Below, piece after piece: positions 53,792 to 64,000 of a stretch of DNA of 64,000 bases (position 1 is its first letter; each line of letters starts with the position of its first letter). Source of the stretch: Rubripirellula sp. (lineage in GTDB: Bacteria > Planctomycetota > Planctomycetia > Pirellulales > Pirellulaceae); the NCBI GenBank assembly GCA_012270065.1, contig JAAXJB010000112.1:24504-88503 (forward strand), given 5' to 3'. The notes beneath the pieces are model-generated. The model saw nothing but the letters and a program-made list of their open reading frames with translations, did not search any database and had not been told where the DNA came from. Position numbers and translations under genes: made by a program.

Positions 53792-54562
53792 TCAGCCTCG
53801 AGCCCGATCAGGCTTGGCAAGCCCACCACCAAGCGTCCCATCATCGAGTTCCTGAACGGTTCTACCGAGAACAATATCAAAATTGGCTTCCAACTCACCA
53901 ATCCTCGATCCTTTGATCGGATTGAATCCGACGAGCAGGGAGTCACGGGCCGCCTGATTAGCAAGACGCTTGAACAGGAAATCCTGCTCGTTCATGGGAT
54001 GCCCTTTGACCAGCATCTGCGTGGTCAGAACACGATGTCCATTTTTGCTGACGCCAAAGTGGATGTGCGGTGTTCTGCCGGGATAAGGCACTGGCTTGAT
54101 CGTGCGGAAAAAGTAGCGTCCCTGGCTGTCAGTCAAGTAACGGCCGTAACCCTGAAAATTGGCGTCAGCCTTGGTTTTATTACTGGAACGACTATGAAGA
54201 TAGGCTCCCCCAGCATCACACTGCCAGATTTCAACGAACGCATTTCGAATTGGCTGCCCGTTTTTGCCTAACACACGCCCCGAAAGGTAGGTAATCTCTC
54301 CGACACCCGGATTCAGCGAGTCGTTGATCAGGAGAAGGTCGTTGTCGGTATCAAGCGGAAGGCGATCAGGGTAGAACGGACCTTCCACCATGCTTGCCGT
54401 GCGAACCAGGCCACCTTCAACTTCCTCTGCAAAGCATCCTGGAATCGCGAATGCGGCGGAAAGCAACGCAGAACTTTTCAGCAAAGATCTTCGATTCATC
54501 GACATCCAATGCCGATCAGATTCCGATCCGGATTCCGCCTTGGGATGAGCTTTCATGGCCAT
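53792..54562 (-). CDS. Intradiol ring-cleavage dioxygenase, protocatechuate 3,4-dioxygenase-like
   Basis: EGPFYPDRLPLDTDNDLLLIND; GRVLGKNGQPIRNAFVEIWQCDAGGAYLH; RYFFRTIKPVPYPGRTPHIHFGV. Confidence 0.92.
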   Translation of the reverse strand: MAMKAHPKAESGSESDRHWMSMNRRSLLKSSALLSAAFAIPGCFAEEVEGGLVRTASMVEGPFYPDRLPLDTDNDLLLINDSLNPGVGEITYLSGRVLGKNGQPIRNAFVEIWQCDAGGAYLHSRSSNKTKADANFQGYGRYLTDSQGRYFFRTIKPVPYPGRTPHIHFGVSKNGHRVLTTQMLVKGHPMNEQDFLFKRLANQAARDSLLVGFNPIKGSRIGELEANFDIVLGRTVQELDDGTLGGGLAKPDRARG

Positions 54563-55003
54563 TCTGTTTCCTCATTCAAATCGTGGTCAAGGATGTTACT
54601 TTGCTATCGTAAAATCAGGTCGCTCGCCACAGGCAAGGCCATGTCAGCGTCACGACGATGCTGACACTTTACGCTCAATTGATCTCGATGGATGTAAAGG
54701 AATTGTAACAGCACTGGGCGTCTGACTCGATGATGCCACCTGAAACCCGGCAACCTCACCGAGCCCCCCACAACAGCACACGCTTCAGAGCAGCAACCGC
54801 CTGCCAGAATGTCGGGTTGGAAGATGCTGTTCGGGCAACACCCGCTGGCTTCACCCCCCCGTGGCTAGATAGACTGGGAACTTGCACGGCGGAAAAACAC
54901 TCGGAAAAGGACAAAGGTATCCAGGTTGGGTACCGGGTGGGATTCATCAGAATTCCGCCCAACCGGCCAGCAGTTTGCGAGGTGCCGAGCAGGAGCCACG
55001 ACA

Positions 55004-56926
55004 GTGACGGACACAACGAAAACTCGATTCTGGTCGCCCCAACAAAGCGCCGAGCTGTACGAAATTGATCGTTGGAGCGACGGCTACTTCAACATTTCAG
55101 ACCGGGGCACAATCACAGTCTCCCCAACGCGCCAGGCAGAAGACGGGATTGACCTGAAGGAACTCATCGACGGTCTGAAACAACGAGGTCTCGACCTGCC
55201 CATTCTGATCCGTTTCAACGGGATCCTGGGAGACCGCCTGAAAACACTCAGCCAATGTTTTCAAAAGGCAATTGACGAGAACGGTTACCAGAATGGATAT
55301 CGCTGCATCTATCCCATCAAGGTCAACCAGCAGCGTGATGTTGTCCAGCAGATCATTCGCCACGGACAGCAATTCGGCTCAGGTGTCGAGGCTGGAAGCA
55401 AACCTGAACTGCTGGCGGTTGTCGCAATGACCGATGCGGATACGCCAATCATCTGCAATGGTTTCAAGGATGCCGAGTTCATCCGCATGGCATTGCTGGC
55501 TCAGAGGCTTGGACGCACGGTGATTCCGGTGGTTGAGAAAGTCAGTGAACTGGATCTGATTCTCGAGATTTCCGAAGAACTCGGTGTTCGCCCGACTTTG
55601 GGTATGCGTGTCAAGCTTGCCACGCGGGGTTCGGGACGTTGGCAAGCCAGCGGTGGCTACCGCAGTAAATTCGGACTCACCGTTGCGGAAATGCTCAATC
55701 AGCTCGACCGCTTGATCGACCACGGCATGGGTGACTGTTTCCAGTTGCTGCATTTTCATGTGGGCAGCCAGGTAGGAAACATAAGACAGCTCAAGGCAGC
55801 ACTTGTCGAGGCAGCGAGAATCTATGTTGACCTGCATCGCCGTGGTGCAGGCTTGAAGTATCTCGACGTTGGAGGCGGGTTGGGTGTCGACTACGACGGC
55901 TCACAAAGCGACACCGCCTCAAGCATGAACTACACCGTGCAGGAATATGCCAACGACGTCGTGTTCCACGTCCAGACTGTTTGCGATGAGGCAGCTGTCC
56001 CCCACCCTCAATTGATATCGGAAAGCGGCAGGGCAATCGCTGCCCATCACAGCGTACTTGTCGTAGAAACTCTGGGTGTTACATCGCAGGGTAATGTGCA
56101 AGCAGTTCCCATGCAGGTTCCAGAGCATTATGAGCAGCCAGTGCTCGATCTCTGGAATACATTCTGCGACCTCAGCAGCGAAAACATCCATGAGTCATAC
56201 CACGATGCACAACTAGCTTTGGACATGTGCATGAGTTTATTCAGTGGGGGCTATCTTCCACTGGAACAACGAGTGACAGCAGAGGACCTGTTCTTTTCTC
56301 TATGCCATCGCATCCGTGACATGGCAAATGCGCAGCAGGATCCGCATGTGGACTTCAAAGAGCTTGATCGCATGCTCTCCGACATCTACTTCGTCAACTT
56401 TTCCCTCTTTCAATCCATTCCCGATTCCTGGGCGATCAACCATCTTTTTCCAGTCGTTCCAGTGCACCGTCTGGATGAACAGCCTACAAGACACGCTGTG
56501 CTAGGTGACATCACCTGCGATAGCGATGGAAAAGTGGATCGATTCATCGACGGCGGCAAACAGAAAAGAACGCTTCTGCTGCACGATCTTCGCCCGAATG
56601 AACCTTATCAGCTTGCGGTATTCATGGTCGGCGCCTATCAGGAAATCCTGGGTGACCTGCACAACCTGTTTGGTGATACCCATGCCGTGCATGTTGATGT
56701 TCACAACGGCAATGCAAAGGTGCAGTCGATCGTCAAAGGCGATACCGTTCGCGAAGTACTCGGTTATGTCCAATACGAAGGGCGTGAACTGGTAGACAAA
56801 CTACAGGATGCGGTCGAAGACGCTTTGCAACACGGTCACATCACCAACGAACAAGCCGGCGACACCGTTTCATTTTACGAACAGGCTCTCGCACATTACA
56901 CCTACTTGTCGGGCCGCAGCGAATGA
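55004..56926 (+). CDS. speA: Biosynthetic arginine decarboxylase
   Basis: LPILIRFNGILGDRL; YRCIYPIKVNQQRDVVQQIIRHGQQFGSGVEAGSKPEL; KYLDVGGGLGVDYDGS; GTG start in frame with the 54926 ORF. Confidence 0.95.
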   Translation: MTDTTKTRFWSPQQSAELYEIDRWSDGYFNISDRGTITVSPTRQAEDGIDLKELIDGLKQRGLDLPILIRFNGILGDRLKTLSQCFQKAIDENGYQNGYRCIYPIKVNQQRDVVQQIIRHGQQFGSGVEAGSKPELLAVVAMTDADTPIICNGFKDAEFIRMALLAQRLGRTVIPVVEKVSELDLILEISEELGVRPTLGMRVKLATRGSGRWQASGGYRSKFGLTVAEMLNQLDRLIDHGMGDCFQLLHFHVGSQVGNIRQLKAALVEAARIYVDLHRRGAGLKYLDVGGGLGVDYDGSQSDTASSMNYTVQEYANDVVFHVQTVCDEAAVPHPQLISESGRAIAAHHSVLVVETLGVTSQGNVQAVPMQVPEHYEQPVLDLWNTFCDLSSENIHESYHDAQLALDMCMSLFSGGYLPLEQRVTAEDLFFSLCHRIRDMANAQQDPHVDFKELDRMLSDIYFVNFSLFQSIPDSWAINHLFPVVPVHRLDEQPTRHAVLGDITCDSDGKVDRFIDGGKQKRTLLLHDLRPNEPYQLAVFMVGAYQEILGDLHNLFGDTHAVHVDVHNGNAKVQSIVKGDTVREVLGYVQYEGRELVDKLQDAVEDALQHGHITNEQAGDTVSFYEQALAHYTYLSGRSE

Positions 56927-57554: not shown

Positions 57555-58718
57555 TTGTCCATCCTGCTCACCGCCAAATGGCTGATCCCGCTGGTTCACA
57601 CTTTGACGCTGGCAGTCCTGCCTGTTGTCGTTGAAACCACGGACGGAAAGAAAATTCGTGGTGAACTTTCAGGCATCACCGCTGACAAGTTGCTTGTGAC
57701 AGCCGCCGGAAGTACTCAAGAGCTGTCTTTCGACGATCTTGTGTCGATGGAGCGAACAGATTTCACTCCGAAAGTCCCCCCAGCCACGAACGTTGCATTT
57801 GCCAATGGCTCGAGGGTTTTCACGGGAGGGCTGACTTTTGACGGGCAGGGCGTGCTAGTCAGTCCACGACGCCAGGAACCGCTGCTGGCACCCGTCAAGA
57901 AACTACGATCCATACGCTTCCGAAAATCGTCAGCAGAAACGGATGCCCAGTGGCTCGGCCTCGCAAACGTAGAAAGCAAACGCGACACCCTGGTCATCCG
58001 CCGCCCGGGCAATCGTCTTGACCCACAGGAAGGCATCATTCTGGCCATCAAGGATGCAATCGTCGTGTTCGATCTTGACGGTACAGAAATCGACGCGCCG
58101 ATGAATCAGCTCGAAGGCATCGTATTCGGCGGCAAGGCCGAAGTGGAGAAAACTCCTCCTCTCAGACTGACTGACATCTACGGGTCCACCTGGCTACTCA
58201 CCAGCATCAAAACGGACGCGGATGGTGAATCATTGAACATCCAACTCGATGACAGCCTCGAACATGCAATCCCGATGGACCAAGTGGCAAGAATCGACTG
58301 GAGCAGTGGAGTGCTTCTGCTGTCGGCAGAAAAGCCATCGGTATCAAAGTTCACGCCGTACCTTGCGACCAACGTTGCACCAGACCTGGTAGACCGGTTC
58401 TTTGCCCCCCGTCAACAGGGCGAAGCAGACTTGCAGATGAATGGTGGTTCCGTTTTGGAATACAGACTTGATCCGGAATTCAAAAGGTTTGCCGGCGCTG
58501 TAGTTCGCGGACAGGCGGACGGGGTCAACGGAGCGTTGAAAGTCAACATCAAACTCGACGACAAGCTGGTCTGGAGTGAGTCGCTGACGGACGCTCAACC
58601 ACGCGGCTTTGATATCGAAACAGGAAAGGCTCGAAAGGTCAGGCTGGAGGTTGGACTGGGTGGCGACGGCGATGCAGGTGACAACATTCGTTTGCTTCGC
58701 CCACGTTTACTGAAGTGA
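57555..58718 (+). CDS. Secreted protein with C-terminal NPCBM/NEW2-like domain
   Basis: Signal peptide; C-terminal FKRFAGAVVRGQADGVNGALKVNIKLDDKLVWSESLTDAQPRGFDIETGKARKVRLEVGLGGDGDAGDNIRLLRPRL. Confidence 0.78.
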   Translation: MSILLTAKWLIPLVHTLTLAVLPVVVETTDGKKIRGELSGITADKLLVTAAGSTQELSFDDLVSMERTDFTPKVPPATNVAFANGSRVFTGGLTFDGQGVLVSPRRQEPLLAPVKKLRSIRFRKSSAETDAQWLGLANVESKRDTLVIRRPGNRLDPQEGIILAIKDAIVVFDLDGTEIDAPMNQLEGIVFGGKAEVEKTPPLRLTDIYGSTWLLTSIKTDADGESLNIQLDDSLEHAIPMDQVARIDWSSGVLLLSAEKPSVSKFTPYLATNVAPDLVDRFFAPRQQGEADLQMNGGSVLEYRLDPEFKRFAGAVVRGQADGVNGALKVNIKLDDKLVWSESLTDAQPRGFDIETGKARKVRLEVGLGGDGDAGDNIRLLRPRLLK

Positions 58719-58887: not shown

Positions 58888-60873
58888 ATGAAGCTCACAA
58901 TTATCGAACTGATGAAAAAAGCACGACGACTCAACAGCCTGCTAGCGCTCGTCCTGACCCTGTGGTTCAGTAGCCCTTCAACAGCTTCAGACCCGATTGA
59001 ACTGGATCCAGTCCTGGAAGCAGTCGAAACCCGTCGGATCGAATCGATCGCCCGCGCCGTACCATCGGCGGTCAGCGTCTTTGTACCTGGCGGCGGAGGC
59101 GGTGGCAGCGGAGTGGTGATATCGCCTGACGGTTATGCACTGACCAACTTTCATGTCACAAGCCCTGCGGGCTCTTTCATGCGCTGCGGCATGAGCGATG
59201 GAAACGTGTACGATGCAGTCATCGTTGGGATCGACCCTGTGGGCGACCTGGCAATGATCCGACTGCTTGGACGCAGCGACTTTCCAACTGCCACACTGGG
59301 CAACAGTCGAACGGCCCAAGCCGGAGACTGGTGCATGGTAATCGGCAATCCTTTTCTGCTGGCAACCAATCTGAAACCGACCGTGACCTATGGAATCCTC
59401 AGCGGCGTAGGGCGTTATCAATATCCTTCGGGCACTTTGCTTGAATACGGGGACTGCCTGCAAACCGATGCCTCTGTTAATCCCGGCAACTCGGGTGGTC
59501 CCATCTATGATGCCGAAGGTCGACTGCTGGGCATCATCGGCCGCTGCTCCTTTGAGAAACGTGGTCGAGTGAACGTCGGAGTTGGCTATGCAATTTCGAT
59601 CAATCAGGCTGAGAATTTCATTGGATACCTGCACAGCGGTCGCATTGTTGATCACGCGACACTTGGTGCCACCGTGTCAACTGACCCGGATGGGGGCGCC
59701 GTGGTATCGAACATTCTGGAATCCAGCGACGCTTATCGCCGCGGTCTGCGGTATGGGGCAGAAATTCTCGAAATCGATGGCCGGACCGTACAGACGGCCA
59801 ATGACGTCCAAAATGTACTCGCCACGCTGCCCAGTGGCTGGCGTGTCAAACTCGCGTATCGTTCGAAAGGACAAACCGTTGAAACGCTGGTTCGTTTGAT
59901 GGGTGTTCACCTGGAAGACGAACTGCTGAAAAAGATGGCCGGGGCACTCCCTCCTCCTCCGCCTCGCCCGCAACAGCCCGGCGACAACAAGGACAAACCG
60001 AAGGACGGCGACGCCCCGGATGGCGAAAAAGAGAACAAGCCGCCGCAAAGGGGTCCACGTGGTCAACCTGCAGGCAAGCCAGCCATAAAGATCCCGCAGA
60101 AGGTCAAGGACCAGCTGGTAGAAAGAAAAGGATTTGCCAACTACCACTTCAACCTTGTTGAACAGAAAGCGTTCATCAACGCCCTGCGGAACCAGTTCCC
60201 CAGCAGAAACAAAGAACAGCCGGTGGCAGAGGCAGACGAAAACGCCAGTCCAAAACAGGCATGGGTGATCCGTGGAGAAACAGTGGAAGAATCGCCAAAG
60301 CCCATCACGATTCAGATCGACACAGACAGGATGTCACTCGCGATTGGGAAACAGACTTTCGAAATCAGCAAGCGGAGTAAAATGTACGATGCCATCACCG
60401 ATGGTGACCCGACAGGCGTCCTGCCGGCGTTGGACGCGTGGCGGAGGATGCTCGACGATGGCCCCCGGAAATTCGGCGAATCGTACTATCTGGGAACAAT
60501 GCCTCTTGGCGGCGAACGCCCGCTACGCGACGTCATGGTCGGAATCGCAGGAGAACTGCAGGTGCGTTGGCTGAGCCACCCCGAGACAGGACTGGTCGAA
60601 GCCATCGAAGTGTTCGCTGATCGCGATGAAGACCCTGCGGAACTATGGGTCTTACGAGAGGGTGATTCGCAATCGATGCCGACCATTCTGGATCTTCGTT
60701 ACGGCTTGGACAGCAGACTGAAAATCAAGGTCAACTCATGGGAATCTGTCCCAGGCAGTGAACTTGAGTGGGACAACGGAGAAAAGAATGCCGCTGTCGG
60801 GCCTGCTCGACCACTGATTCAAAACGCGACCGGGTCAAAATTGGCTCTTGCCAACAAAGAGGTGAGTTCATGA
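58888..60873 (+). CDS. Trypsin-like HtrA-type serine protease with PDZ domain (catalytic triad intact)
   Basis: TNFHV (His), DPVGDLAMIRL (Asp), NPGNSGGP (Ser); PDZ region GGAVVSNILESSDAYRRGLRYGAEILEIDGR. Confidence 0.93.
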   Translation: MKLTIIELMKKARRLNSLLALVLTLWFSSPSTASDPIELDPVLEAVETRRIESIARAVPSAVSVFVPGGGGGGSGVVISPDGYALTNFHVTSPAGSFMRCGMSDGNVYDAVIVGIDPVGDLAMIRLLGRSDFPTATLGNSRTAQAGDWCMVIGNPFLLATNLKPTVTYGILSGVGRYQYPSGTLLEYGDCLQTDASVNPGNSGGPIYDAEGRLLGIIGRCSFEKRGRVNVGVGYAISINQAENFIGYLHSGRIVDHATLGATVSTDPDGGAVVSNILESSDAYRRGLRYGAEILEIDGRTVQTANDVQNVLATLPSGWRVKLAYRSKGQTVETLVRLMGVHLEDELLKKMAGALPPPPPRPQQPGDNKDKPKDGDAPDGEKENKPPQRGPRGQPAGKPAIKIPQKVKDQLVERKGFANYHFNLVEQKAFINALRNQFPSRNKEQPVAEADENASPKQAWVIRGETVEESPKPITIQIDTDRMSLAIGKQTFEISKRSKMYDAITDGDPTGVLPALDAWRRMLDDGPRKFGESYYLGTMPLGGERPLRDVMVGIAGELQVRWLSHPETGLVEAIEVFADRDEDPAELWVLREGDSQSMPTILDLRYGLDSRLKIKVNSWESVPGSELEWDNGEKNAAVGPARPLIQNATGSKLALANKEVSS

Positions 60874-61889
60874 ATCGTATATCTGGTTTGATCGTGGCAC
60901 TGTTGACCATCGCACTGCTCGTTGCTTCGACATCACCAATGGCCCATGCGGAGGCCCCTTTGGGGAAATGGGTACGTGATGCCCAGAAACGTGTTGTGAA
61001 GATCTATGGTGCGGGTGGCTTGAAAGGTCTGGAAGCCTATCAGAGTGGTTTCCTTGTCTCGCCCGATGGCCACATCGCAACTGCGTGGAGCTACGTACTG
61101 GACGTCAATCCCGTTGTTCTGCTTGATGATGGGCGGCGTTTCGAATCAAAAATTGTTGGATTCGAACCTGCGTTGGAATTGGCAGTTCTGAAAATTGATG
61201 CGACCGACACACCGTTTTTTGAACTCAACGAAAAGCGTTCTGTGGACTGGGGCGACCCTGTGATTGCAGTGAGCAACCTGTTCAACATTGCCACTGGAAA
61301 CGAACCTGCCAGCGTGATGCAGGGAACAGTCGCATCCACCGCGGATTTGAACGCGAGAAGGGGAACATTCAAGACACCTTATCGCGGACAGGTTCTGGTG
61401 CTTGATCTGATTGCCAACAACCCTGGTGCTGCCGGAGGGGCAGTCATCGACACGGATGGTCAGTTGGCAGGAATGCTTGGAAAAGAGTTGCGTGACGCAA
61501 CGACAGGTGTATGGCTGAACTATGCCGTGCCGGCCGATGCCCTGCGAACAACCGTTGGTGACATCATCGCAGGCAGGAAAACCACCGCAGTCGATGCGAC
61601 CACCAAGACATTGCCTCGCAAAGACTCGCATAACCCCGCTGCCCTGGGGCTCGTGCTGGTGCCTGACGTTTTGGAGATAACGCCAGCATTTGTGGACAAA
61701 GTAAAACCGGACAGCCCGGCATCGCGTGCATCTCTGAAAGCCGATGATCTGATTCTGCTGGTCAACGGCCAGCGAGTGGACGGCCAACGTACTTTACGTT
61801 CACTGCTGCGGACAATCGACCGACGCGATGATGTTGAACTGACGGTTCAACGCGACACAGACATTCTTCCCGTTACACTGCAACCGTGA
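60870..61889 (+). CDS. HtrA-like PDZ protein, predicted pseudoprotease
   Basis: Same fold landmarks, but His position is TAWSYV, Asp position ALELAVLKI, Ser position NPGAAGGA; PDZ VKPDSPASRASLKADDLILLVNGQRV; ATGA overlap with previous gene. Confidence 0.88.
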   Translation: MNRISGLIVALLTIALLVASTSPMAHAEAPLGKWVRDAQKRVVKIYGAGGLKGLEAYQSGFLVSPDGHIATAWSYVLDVNPVVLLDDGRRFESKIVGFEPALELAVLKIDATDTPFFELNEKRSVDWGDPVIAVSNLFNIATGNEPASVMQGTVASTADLNARRGTFKTPYRGQVLVLDLIANNPGAAGGAVIDTDGQLAGMLGKELRDATTGVWLNYAVPADALRTTVGDIIAGRKTTAVDATTKTLPRKDSHNPAALGLVLVPDVLEITPAFVDKVKPDSPASRASLKADDLILLVNGQRVDGQRTLRSLLRTIDRRDDVELTVQRDTDILPVTLQP

Positions 61890-63844
61890 CTCACATGATT
61901 CGCAACCAGATATCAAGCGGCATTTCGCTGCTGACGCTCGCCATCATTTTCATTGCAACGGCAAGCACGACCCACGCGGACACCGAGTACCGGAAGGCAA
62001 TGGCCAAGGCGGTACGCAACACGGCCAATCGCGTTCTACCCTCAGTGGTTGCGATCGAGATTGTTGGCACGGTACAGGGCGCGGCCGGTGAGATTGAGCA
62101 GGATGCACCAACATCGGGCGTCATCGTTGACGCGGATGGCTTTGTGATCGCATCGAGCATCGTGGTCAGCAAAACTGCCGCAAGCATTCTGGTCGTGCTT
62201 TCGGATGGATCCCGCCATGCTGCCAAGGTGGTGGCACGTGACTATCACCGCGATCTGGTTCTCCTCAAAATCGAAACAACCAAAAAGTTGACTGCCGTTG
62301 ATTTCCCGGAAAAGCTGGATCTCCGGATTGGGAAGACTACCGTTGCGGTCGGGCGCTTTGGCAACGGTGCTTCACCCATCATCAGTCGCGGCGTACTCAG
62401 TGGAGTGGAAAGACTCGACGGAATCGCCTTGCAGACCGACGCCCGTGTTTCACCGGCATTTTACGGTGGCCCCTTGATGGATCTCTACGGAAACGTTTTG
62501 GGAATCCTGATTCCTGCAGTCGCGGGTGGTGCTGGTTCAGACCCAACGGGCTGGTACGACTCGGGCATAGCATTCGCGATTCCCAGTGATGTGATCCAGT
62601 CAAAACTGGACAGGCTGAAATCCGGAACAGATATCAAACGCGGCCTGATTGGCATCGCATCGAAGACCAAAGACCCCTACGACGACGGCACAGGAATCTC
62701 CGCCGTCCGAAAGCGATCACCTGCCGAGTCTGCCGGGATCAAAGCAGGAGATGAGGTCATTGAGATTGCTGGACGCAAAGTCAAACGCCATCAGGAAATC
62801 AAGCAGGCACTGGGTAGATTCGACGCTGGCGAATCAATTCGCATCAAACTGCGTCGTGATGGCAAAGAAATTGATGTCACGACCCAATTGGCCGAGACGA
62901 TTCCACCACTGCAACCACAGCGTCTGGGCGTGCTCGCCCGTGAACAGACGCGTGAGAACGAGCAGGTCGGAGTGATCGTTGATGGCGTCCTTCCAGAAAC
63001 ACCAGCCGACGGAAAAATCGAAGCCGGTGACGAACTGTTGAAGTTCGGCGATGCGAAAATCAGCAGTCTCAATGCACTCCGCAGTCTGTTGATGTCCGCT
63101 GAACCAGAGACAGCGGTTGAAGTGACAATTTCACGAGCAGGTACAGAACAGCAAATCAAAATTACACCTTCCACCATCACAGGTCCGCTACTGAAACAGG
63201 TTCCACCGGCGTGGTCCAATGAGCAGAAAACTGCCGAGTGGTACACAGAAGAAATCAAATTGCCCGATGCTGGAAACTCCGCTGCATTTCTGGCCACCAA
63301 ACCTGAAAACTCGCTACCGGACCAGGGCTTGCTCGTCCTGCTTCTGAATCCAAGCGAAGGTTCGCCAATCGACGTACTTGCCAAGTGGCGTGATGCGGCC
63401 GTTGAAACAGGAGTAGCCATTTGTGCAGTTGCGCCAGAAGACACTCGAAGGTGGCAACCCAAGGAAATCAACGCCATCGGCAACTTTGCCGCTGCCGTGA
63501 TGAAAAAAACCACAGTCAATCCGATGGCAGTCGCAGTTGCAGCACCAGGAGCGATTTCCGGCACGGGAGCAGAAGCAGCCGATTCGATGGCGCTTGCGGT
63601 CGCGGTCTCGCAGAGTGCAACATTCGCGGGTGTGTCGGTTTCACCTGCGACACGTAGCCCAGCAATGCGTGTCAAAGAGAACAATCCATCTTCATCGCTG
63701 CAGGTGCTCCTTCCTGTCTCTTCGGAAAAGGAACTCCCGCGTTGGAGTGTTTCCATCCAACAAGCGGGCTACCCCGTTGTCCGTGGTGGGGAAACCGATG
63801 CCCGAACCCTGTTGAACTGGGTGCGGTCACTGCAGGCCTTTTAG
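61886..63844 (+). CDS. HtrA-like protein with two PDZ domains, predicted pseudoprotease
   Basis: His position IASSIVV, Asp retained (YHRDLVLLKI), Ser position SPAFYGGP; two PDZ regions; overlaps the previous stop. Confidence 0.88.
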   Translation: MTHMIRNQISSGISLLTLAIIFIATASTTHADTEYRKAMAKAVRNTANRVLPSVVAIEIVGTVQGAAGEIEQDAPTSGVIVDADGFVIASSIVVSKTAASILVVLSDGSRHAAKVVARDYHRDLVLLKIETTKKLTAVDFPEKLDLRIGKTTVAVGRFGNGASPIISRGVLSGVERLDGIALQTDARVSPAFYGGPLMDLYGNVLGILIPAVAGGAGSDPTGWYDSGIAFAIPSDVIQSKLDRLKSGTDIKRGLIGIASKTKDPYDDGTGISAVRKRSPAESAGIKAGDEVIEIAGRKVKRHQEIKQALGRFDAGESIRIKLRRDGKEIDVTTQLAETIPPLQPQRLGVLAREQTRENEQVGVIVDGVLPETPADGKIEAGDELLKFGDAKISSLNALRSLLMSAEPETAVEVTISRAGTEQQIKITPSTITGPLLKQVPPAWSNEQKTAEWYTEEIKLPDAGNSAAFLATKPENSLPDQGLLVLLLNPSEGSPIDVLAKWRDAAVETGVAICAVAPEDTRRWQPKEINAIGNFAAAVMKKTTVNPMAVAVAAPGAISGTGAEAADSMALAVAVSQSATFAGVSVSPATRSPAMRVKENNPSSSLQVLLPVSSEKELPRWSVSIQQAGYPVVRGGETDARTLLNWVRSLQAF

Positions 63845-63950: not shown

Positions 63951-64000
63951 AGTGCACTCCAGCACAGTGCACTCCAGCACAGTGCACTCCAGCACAGTGC
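63951..64000. repeat. 15-bp tandem repeat (agtgcactccagcac), at least 3.3 copies, running off the window
   Basis: 63951-63965, 63966-63980, 63981-63995 identical plus partial copy. Confidence 0.95.

Follow-up and report, generated by a model that had tools for sequence, protein, structure and literature searches.

A predicted active HtrA-type protease and two predicted pseudoproteases encoded side by side across Planctomycetota

Three co-oriented HtrA-like genes (g1, g2 and g3) lie at 58888-63844 on the + strand of the window, i.e., the whole 64,000-nucleotide stretch of Rubripirellula sp. DNA analysed here. An earlier reading made from the letters and open reading frames (the sequence-only reading) had described three consecutive HtrA-like genes overlapping at ATGA-type junctions, and the open reading frames together with Pfam and NCBIfam matches confirmed this. 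Neighbouring genes overlap by 4 nt at both junctions, which read ATGA for g1/g2 (60870-60873) and GTGA for g2/g3 (61886-61889); an alternative ATG start for g3 is found at 61895, 5 nt past the g2 stop. All three products matched Trypsin_2 (2e-20 or better) and PDZ models in Pfam, as well as HtrA/DegP/DegS models in NCBIfam below the curated cut-offs. The conserved block g0-g1-g2-g3 opens with g0, a homologue of which lies immediately 5' of g1 in ~70 loci, and this NPCBM-domain gene belongs to the same unit as g1-g3. The features are as follows.

57555-58718, + strand: g0, exported-looking protein of 387 aa, TTG start, C-terminal NPCBM/NEW2 domain (Pfam PF08305, 6.6e-07)
58888-60873, + strand: g1, predicted active HtrA-type protease of 661 aa (signal peptide, Trypsin_2, PDZ, proline-rich linker, C-terminal beta-type domain)
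59104-59535, + strand: Trypsin_2 domain of g1 (Pfam bounds, 3.6e-29)
59152-59154, 59245-59247 and 59491-59493, + strand: codons of the g1 triad, His89, Asp120 and Ser202 (alignment of orthologues)
60133-60870, + strand: C-terminal domain of g1, weakly DUF4292/LolB-like (Lol-type beta fold; tentative)
60870-61889, + strand: g2, predicted pseudoprotease of 339 aa (signal peptide, Trypsin_2 fold, one PDZ; Pfam, NCBIfam and structure profile)
61089-61091, + strand: Ser74 codon of g2, in place of the catalytic His (orthologue alignment)
61431-61433, + strand: Ala188 codon of g2, in place of the catalytic Ser (orthologue alignment)
61886-63844, + strand: g3, predicted pseudoprotease of 652 aa (signal peptide, Trypsin_2 fold, two PDZ, C-terminal hydrolase-like domain)
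62462-62464, + strand: Tyr193 codon of g3, in place of the catalytic Ser (98 of 99 orthologues have Tyr here)
63239-63841, + strand: C-terminal domain of g3, a predicted degenerate alpha/beta-hydrolase fold lacking the nucleophile Ser (profile and Pfam)

Export of g1, g2 and g3 is predicted from their N-terminal sequences; for g1, the N-terminus reads as hydrophobic. The claim that g1 keeps His, Asp and Ser was borne out at the aligned positions (H89/D120/S202), and the triad is intact in all 101 alignable orthologues. Its PDZ domain matched PDZ_2 (4.1e-07), and against TIGR02037 (Do family) it scored 190 bits, where the curated cut-off is 416. On these scores, g1 is best classed as a divergent HtrA relative and not as a named DegP, DegQ or DegS. 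The C-terminal domain matched DUF4292 in 4 of 23 members (best 4.6e-4) and LolB in one (0.026), had no relative in the PDB and is poorly conserved in deep lineages. We also noted a cysteine immediately N-terminal to the catalytic Ser loop (Cys190, window 59455-59457; motif Y-x-D-C-x-Q-x-D), at least 95% conserved in the orthologues.

As the sequence-only reading had stated, g2 lacks all three triad residues, the equivalent positions being occupied by Ser74, Glu103 and Ala188. The fold is nevertheless that of the family: Trypsin_2 was matched at 3.7e-20, the g2 profile matched DegQ, DegS and DegP structures (best 3e-18, DegQ), and the TIGR02037 score was 96 bits (cut-off 416). None of 106 g2 orthologues has an intact triad, and the catalytic Ser position is mostly Ala. 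Catalytic residues at shifted positions had been named as a way in which these calls could fail. A His does lie one residue downstream of the catalytic position in 19 of the 106 orthologues; with each triad residue allowed to shift by one, H, D and S came together in only three of them, and the nucleophile position is Ala in all three.

For g3, the residues at the H/D/S positions are I92, D123 and Y193, in agreement with the earlier call that Asp is kept while His and Ser are lost. The retained Asp is incidental, since only 12 of 99 orthologues have Asp there, and the intact triad was found in none of the 99. Tyr193, by comparison, belongs to the 25 positions of the protease domain that are at least 95% conserved. 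Trypsin_2 was matched at 2.2e-20, and the TIGR02037 score was 191 bits (cut-off 416). Newly seen here is the C-terminal domain of g3, which is predicted to be alpha/beta-hydrolase-like and to have itself lost the nucleophile. Its profile matched esterases in the PDB (3wyd, 1.4e-10) and the PHB depolymerase family (4.4e-09), Pfam alpha/beta-hydrolase families were matched by up to 9 of 43 such domains, and Ser occupies the nucleophile column (G-x-S-x-G) in 1 of the 43. Matches of the same profile to TAL effectors were rejected, as they look like compositional artefacts. These C-terminal ~200 residues are present in the window's class and missing in deep lineages that nonetheless retain g1-g3. 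An AlphaFold2 prediction of g3 from seven sequences (the window and L039-L044) reached a mean pLDDT of 43, and no claim made here rests on that model.

All searches were limited to Planctomycetota. Among 297 genomes of the window's taxonomic order, 264 gave a g2 match at 1e-15, the weakest handful of which are perhaps paralogues. The phylum-wide search of 392 genomes returned 69 matches at 1e-20, covering all 27 sampled genomes of a second family of the same class and ~30 genomes outside the class. We fetched ~100 syntenic loci across the phylum for orthologue comparison, and the arrangement g1-g2-g3 is conserved in nearly all of them, the exceptions being mostly contig ends. One candidate (L144), an HtrA of the ordinary kind whose triad is intact, was rejected as an orthologue and excluded from the counts. 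In a tree of the protease-PDZ regions, g1, g2 and g3 form three separate clades (SH-aLRT 99-100); the tree search was quick, four paralogues served as the outgroup, and the branching order of the three is less certain than their separateness. Given that each clade has members from both the class and deeper lineages, the g1/g2/g3 split predates these lineages.

These data bear on whether g2 and g3 are merely functionless duplicates of g1 undergoing lineage-specific decay, an outcome that the sequence-only reading had proposed to recognise by orthologues with intact triads. The lost triads would fit such decay, as would faster evolution: median pairwise identity is 0.51 for g2 and 0.45 for g3, compared with 0.66 for g1. 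However, no intact triad was found in g2 or g3 across the ~100 loci, and thus the loss is not local. Moreover, open frames, synteny and fixed replacements such as the g3 Tyr extend phylum-wide, the three clades are old, and g2 and g3 are lost jointly with g1 (see below). We therefore reject decay on the distribution across ~100 loci and regard it as scarcely credible. It is strongly supported that g2 and g3 are ancient, obligately non-catalytic homologues, as predicted from their residues, kept beside an active g1. The earlier idea of inactive homologues with a non-catalytic role beside an active protease is thereby well supported, with 0 of 106 g2 and 0 of 99 g3 triads intact.

The three genes are tightly coupled. 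With start-codon choice being approximate, the g1/g2 overlap recurs in 46 of 96 loci where the two are separate genes (median gap 1 nt), and the g2/g3 overlap in 31 of 97 loci (median gap 17 nt). A single open frame joins g1 and g2 in six loci, with a linker at the junction in place of the g2 signal peptide, and four changes between the fused and split states are forced by branches with good support in a 98-locus tree. No fusion containing g3 was seen among the fetched loci. Co-loss points the same way for all three genes: 16 genomes of the window's order (completeness 90% or more in 15) lack g2, and none of these has a g1 above 135 bits, compared with at least 472 bits in six controls. Likewise, 15 of the 16 have no g3 above 103 bits, compared with at least 190 bits in the controls. 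In the exception, G280, g3 runs to the contig end, and we put the missing g1 and g2 down to that contig end rather than to true absence.

Since g1 and g2 form a single polypeptide in six loci, with four changes on the tree, direct contact is favoured for this pair. The earlier proposal of a hetero-oligomer or scaffold with the active protease may hence hold for g1-g2, for which fusions, tree changes and co-loss are indirect support; for g3, the support is linkage and co-loss only. HtrA proteins normally homotrimerise, which counts against a mixed complex, and the window genome holds other HtrA-type genes that may be able to act alone. Alternatively, g2 and g3 could be stand-alone periplasmic chaperones or adaptors that lost protease activity and work in the same pathway as g1, never in complex with it. 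Operon linkage and co-loss need only such a shared pathway, both proteins retain PDZ domains, g3 is unfused in every locus seen, and the chaperone activity of HtrA is separable from proteolysis (PMC4877387). The g1-g2 fusions, however, favour direct contact, and we consider this alternative unlikely, though deserving of weight.

What lies upstream gives the unit a wider context. Families a and b are found 5' of g0 in 66-69 loci, and the genes preceding them are c, a vWA-type membrane protein, a BatA-type protein, DUF58 and MoxR (MoxR, DUF58 and BatA identified by Pfam). In 24 genomes with longer flanks, a-b lies upstream in 20 and BatA in 17, and in 13 the retrieved region contains MoxR, DUF58 and BatA together. 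The triplet is usually the 3' end of a MoxR-DUF58-BatA/vWA operon, except in the family subclade to which the window belongs. Gene c is missing in 13 of the 16 triplet-less genomes and present in 6 of 6 controls. The window genome has the upstream operon genes elsewhere, on contigs C73 and C106, and no Bat genes adjoin the triplet in three relatives from the same family. Thus, g0-g3 apparently split off as a block in that lineage, and tight co-transcription with the Bat genes is not essential.

Several members of this neighbourhood were recorded in their own right. Families a (a Glu/Gln-rich coiled coil) and b (~385 aa) are in the same operon as the triplet at L104:9916-12902 and had no Pfam match at 0.01. 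At L149:1681-7005, the Bat-type operon includes c and the vWA-type membrane protein, both long and conserved, which matched Pfam weakly or not at all. Beyond MoxR, L149:11342-15982 encodes a single 1547-aa protein combining a PQQ/BamB-type beta-propeller with TPR, with homologues in several fetched regions.

In Bat (Bacteroides aerotolerance)/MoxR operons (PMC3557215), the MoxR AAA ATPase, DUF58 and BatA/vWA membrane proteins are likewise encoded in one operon, whereas the planctomycete version adds c, a, b, g0 and the HtrA triplet at the 3' end. Bat function is still described as elusive (PMC3557215). Since the unit stands at the 3' end of a Bat-type operon in most planctomycetes examined, its job is likely to be with exported proteins handled by the Bat system, which it would process or quality-control.

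Taken as a whole, g1-g3 probably form an envelope HtrA unit of one protease and two pseudoproteases, in which g2 binds g1, g3 serves in recognition or as a scaffold, and the task is Bat-linked quality control. In this mechanism, g2 would bind g1 directly, either in a mixed trimer or in a 1:1 pair like that of the natural fusions, and would control g1 activity or present substrate through its PDZ domain. With its two PDZ domains and dead hydrolase-like domain, g3 may be a substrate-recognition or scaffold subunit. The physical complex, allosteric control and substrate recognition, like any link to stress, are what we infer from the genes.

To our knowledge, HtrA-fold pseudoproteases have rarely been studied, and the main known bacterial case is tied to magnetosomes. 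There, the pseudoprotease MamO activates proteolysis by MamE without catalysis, although no physical interaction between the two was detected (PMC4794232), a point against a complex in the triplet. As in the planctomycete locus, an active HtrA-type protease is genetically coupled to, and encoded together with, a pseudoprotease of the same fold, whose conservation argues for function and whose role is non-catalytic (PMC4794232). Unlike MamE/MamO, the triplet comprises two different pseudoproteases, has no TauE-type transporter domain, includes natural g1-g2 fusions, and is found phylum-wide in a Bat-type operon context rather than on a magnetosome island. Against the NCBIfam MamE and MamO models, g1-g3 scored at most 110 and 47 bits, respectively (curated cut-off 800). 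MamE/MamO may thus be regarded as the nearest precedent, in that the triplet appears to resemble it in logic, i.e., in how it would work.

The magnetosome case also suggests a different role, in which g2 and g3 would be repurposed to bind a non-protein ligand (metal, lipid or polysaccharide) and g1 would be a housekeeping processor of both, as MamE processes MamO. The dead protease domain of MamO binds a transition metal (PMC4794232), g0 carries a carbohydrate-type NPCBM domain, the g1 C-terminus is weakly Lol-like, and g3 ends in a dead hydrolase fold. Set against this, we identified no ligand-binding motif, the assignment of the g1 side domain is weak, and the hydrolase domain of g3 is missing in deep lineages that keep all three genes. 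We judge this role to be quite improbable.

Returning to the envelope unit, two further systems offer partial parallels. DegP, DegQ and DegS (S1C) share with the triplet the Trypsin_2 and PDZ architecture, the signal peptide and clear sequence similarity; they differ in that the triad is missing from two of the three triplet members, that g1 and g3 have additional C-terminal domains, and that the triplet scores fall under the Do-family cut-off. Plant chloroplast Deg5 and Deg8, two Deg paralogues, form 1:1 hetero-oligomers (PMC4877387), whereas the planctomycete complex is proposed from genes. Moreover, both Deg5 and Deg8 are treated as proteases, whereas one partner in the triplet is predicted to be dead in every orthologue, and there is a third member. 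Our search of the literature, which covered open-licence papers and is thus weak evidence, found nothing on planctomycete HtrA pseudoproteases and nothing joining MoxR with HtrA and vWA.

More tentatively, the triplet could be a phylum-wide three-subunit HtrA machine, its catalytic subunit governed by two pseudoproteases, serving a MoxR/Bat chaperone-type system as its arm on the envelope side; we hold this broader picture to be possible, with less confidence than the envelope unit itself. An active/dead/dead HtrA set kept across a phylum is a good new place for studying the roles of dead enzyme copies, and the natural g1-g2 fusions are a ready-made 1:1 pair for experiments. The MoxR/Bat link, in turn, supplies the Bat system with a protease and candidate clients, so that both questions become testable in cultured planctomycetes.

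The surroundings of the block were also inspected. The open reading frame at 54926-56926 (666 aa), 5' of g0, is one that we take to encode a biosynthetic arginine decarboxylase (SpeA-like), and a homologue of it lies 5' of the block in five related loci. The one at 53792-54562 (- strand) presumably encodes a secreted intradiol dioxygenase-type protein, which it resembles by eye. Finally, 15-bp tandem repeats (AGTGCACTCCAGCAC) were observed 3' of g3, at 63951-64000 of the window and just beyond it (L154:8455-8670).
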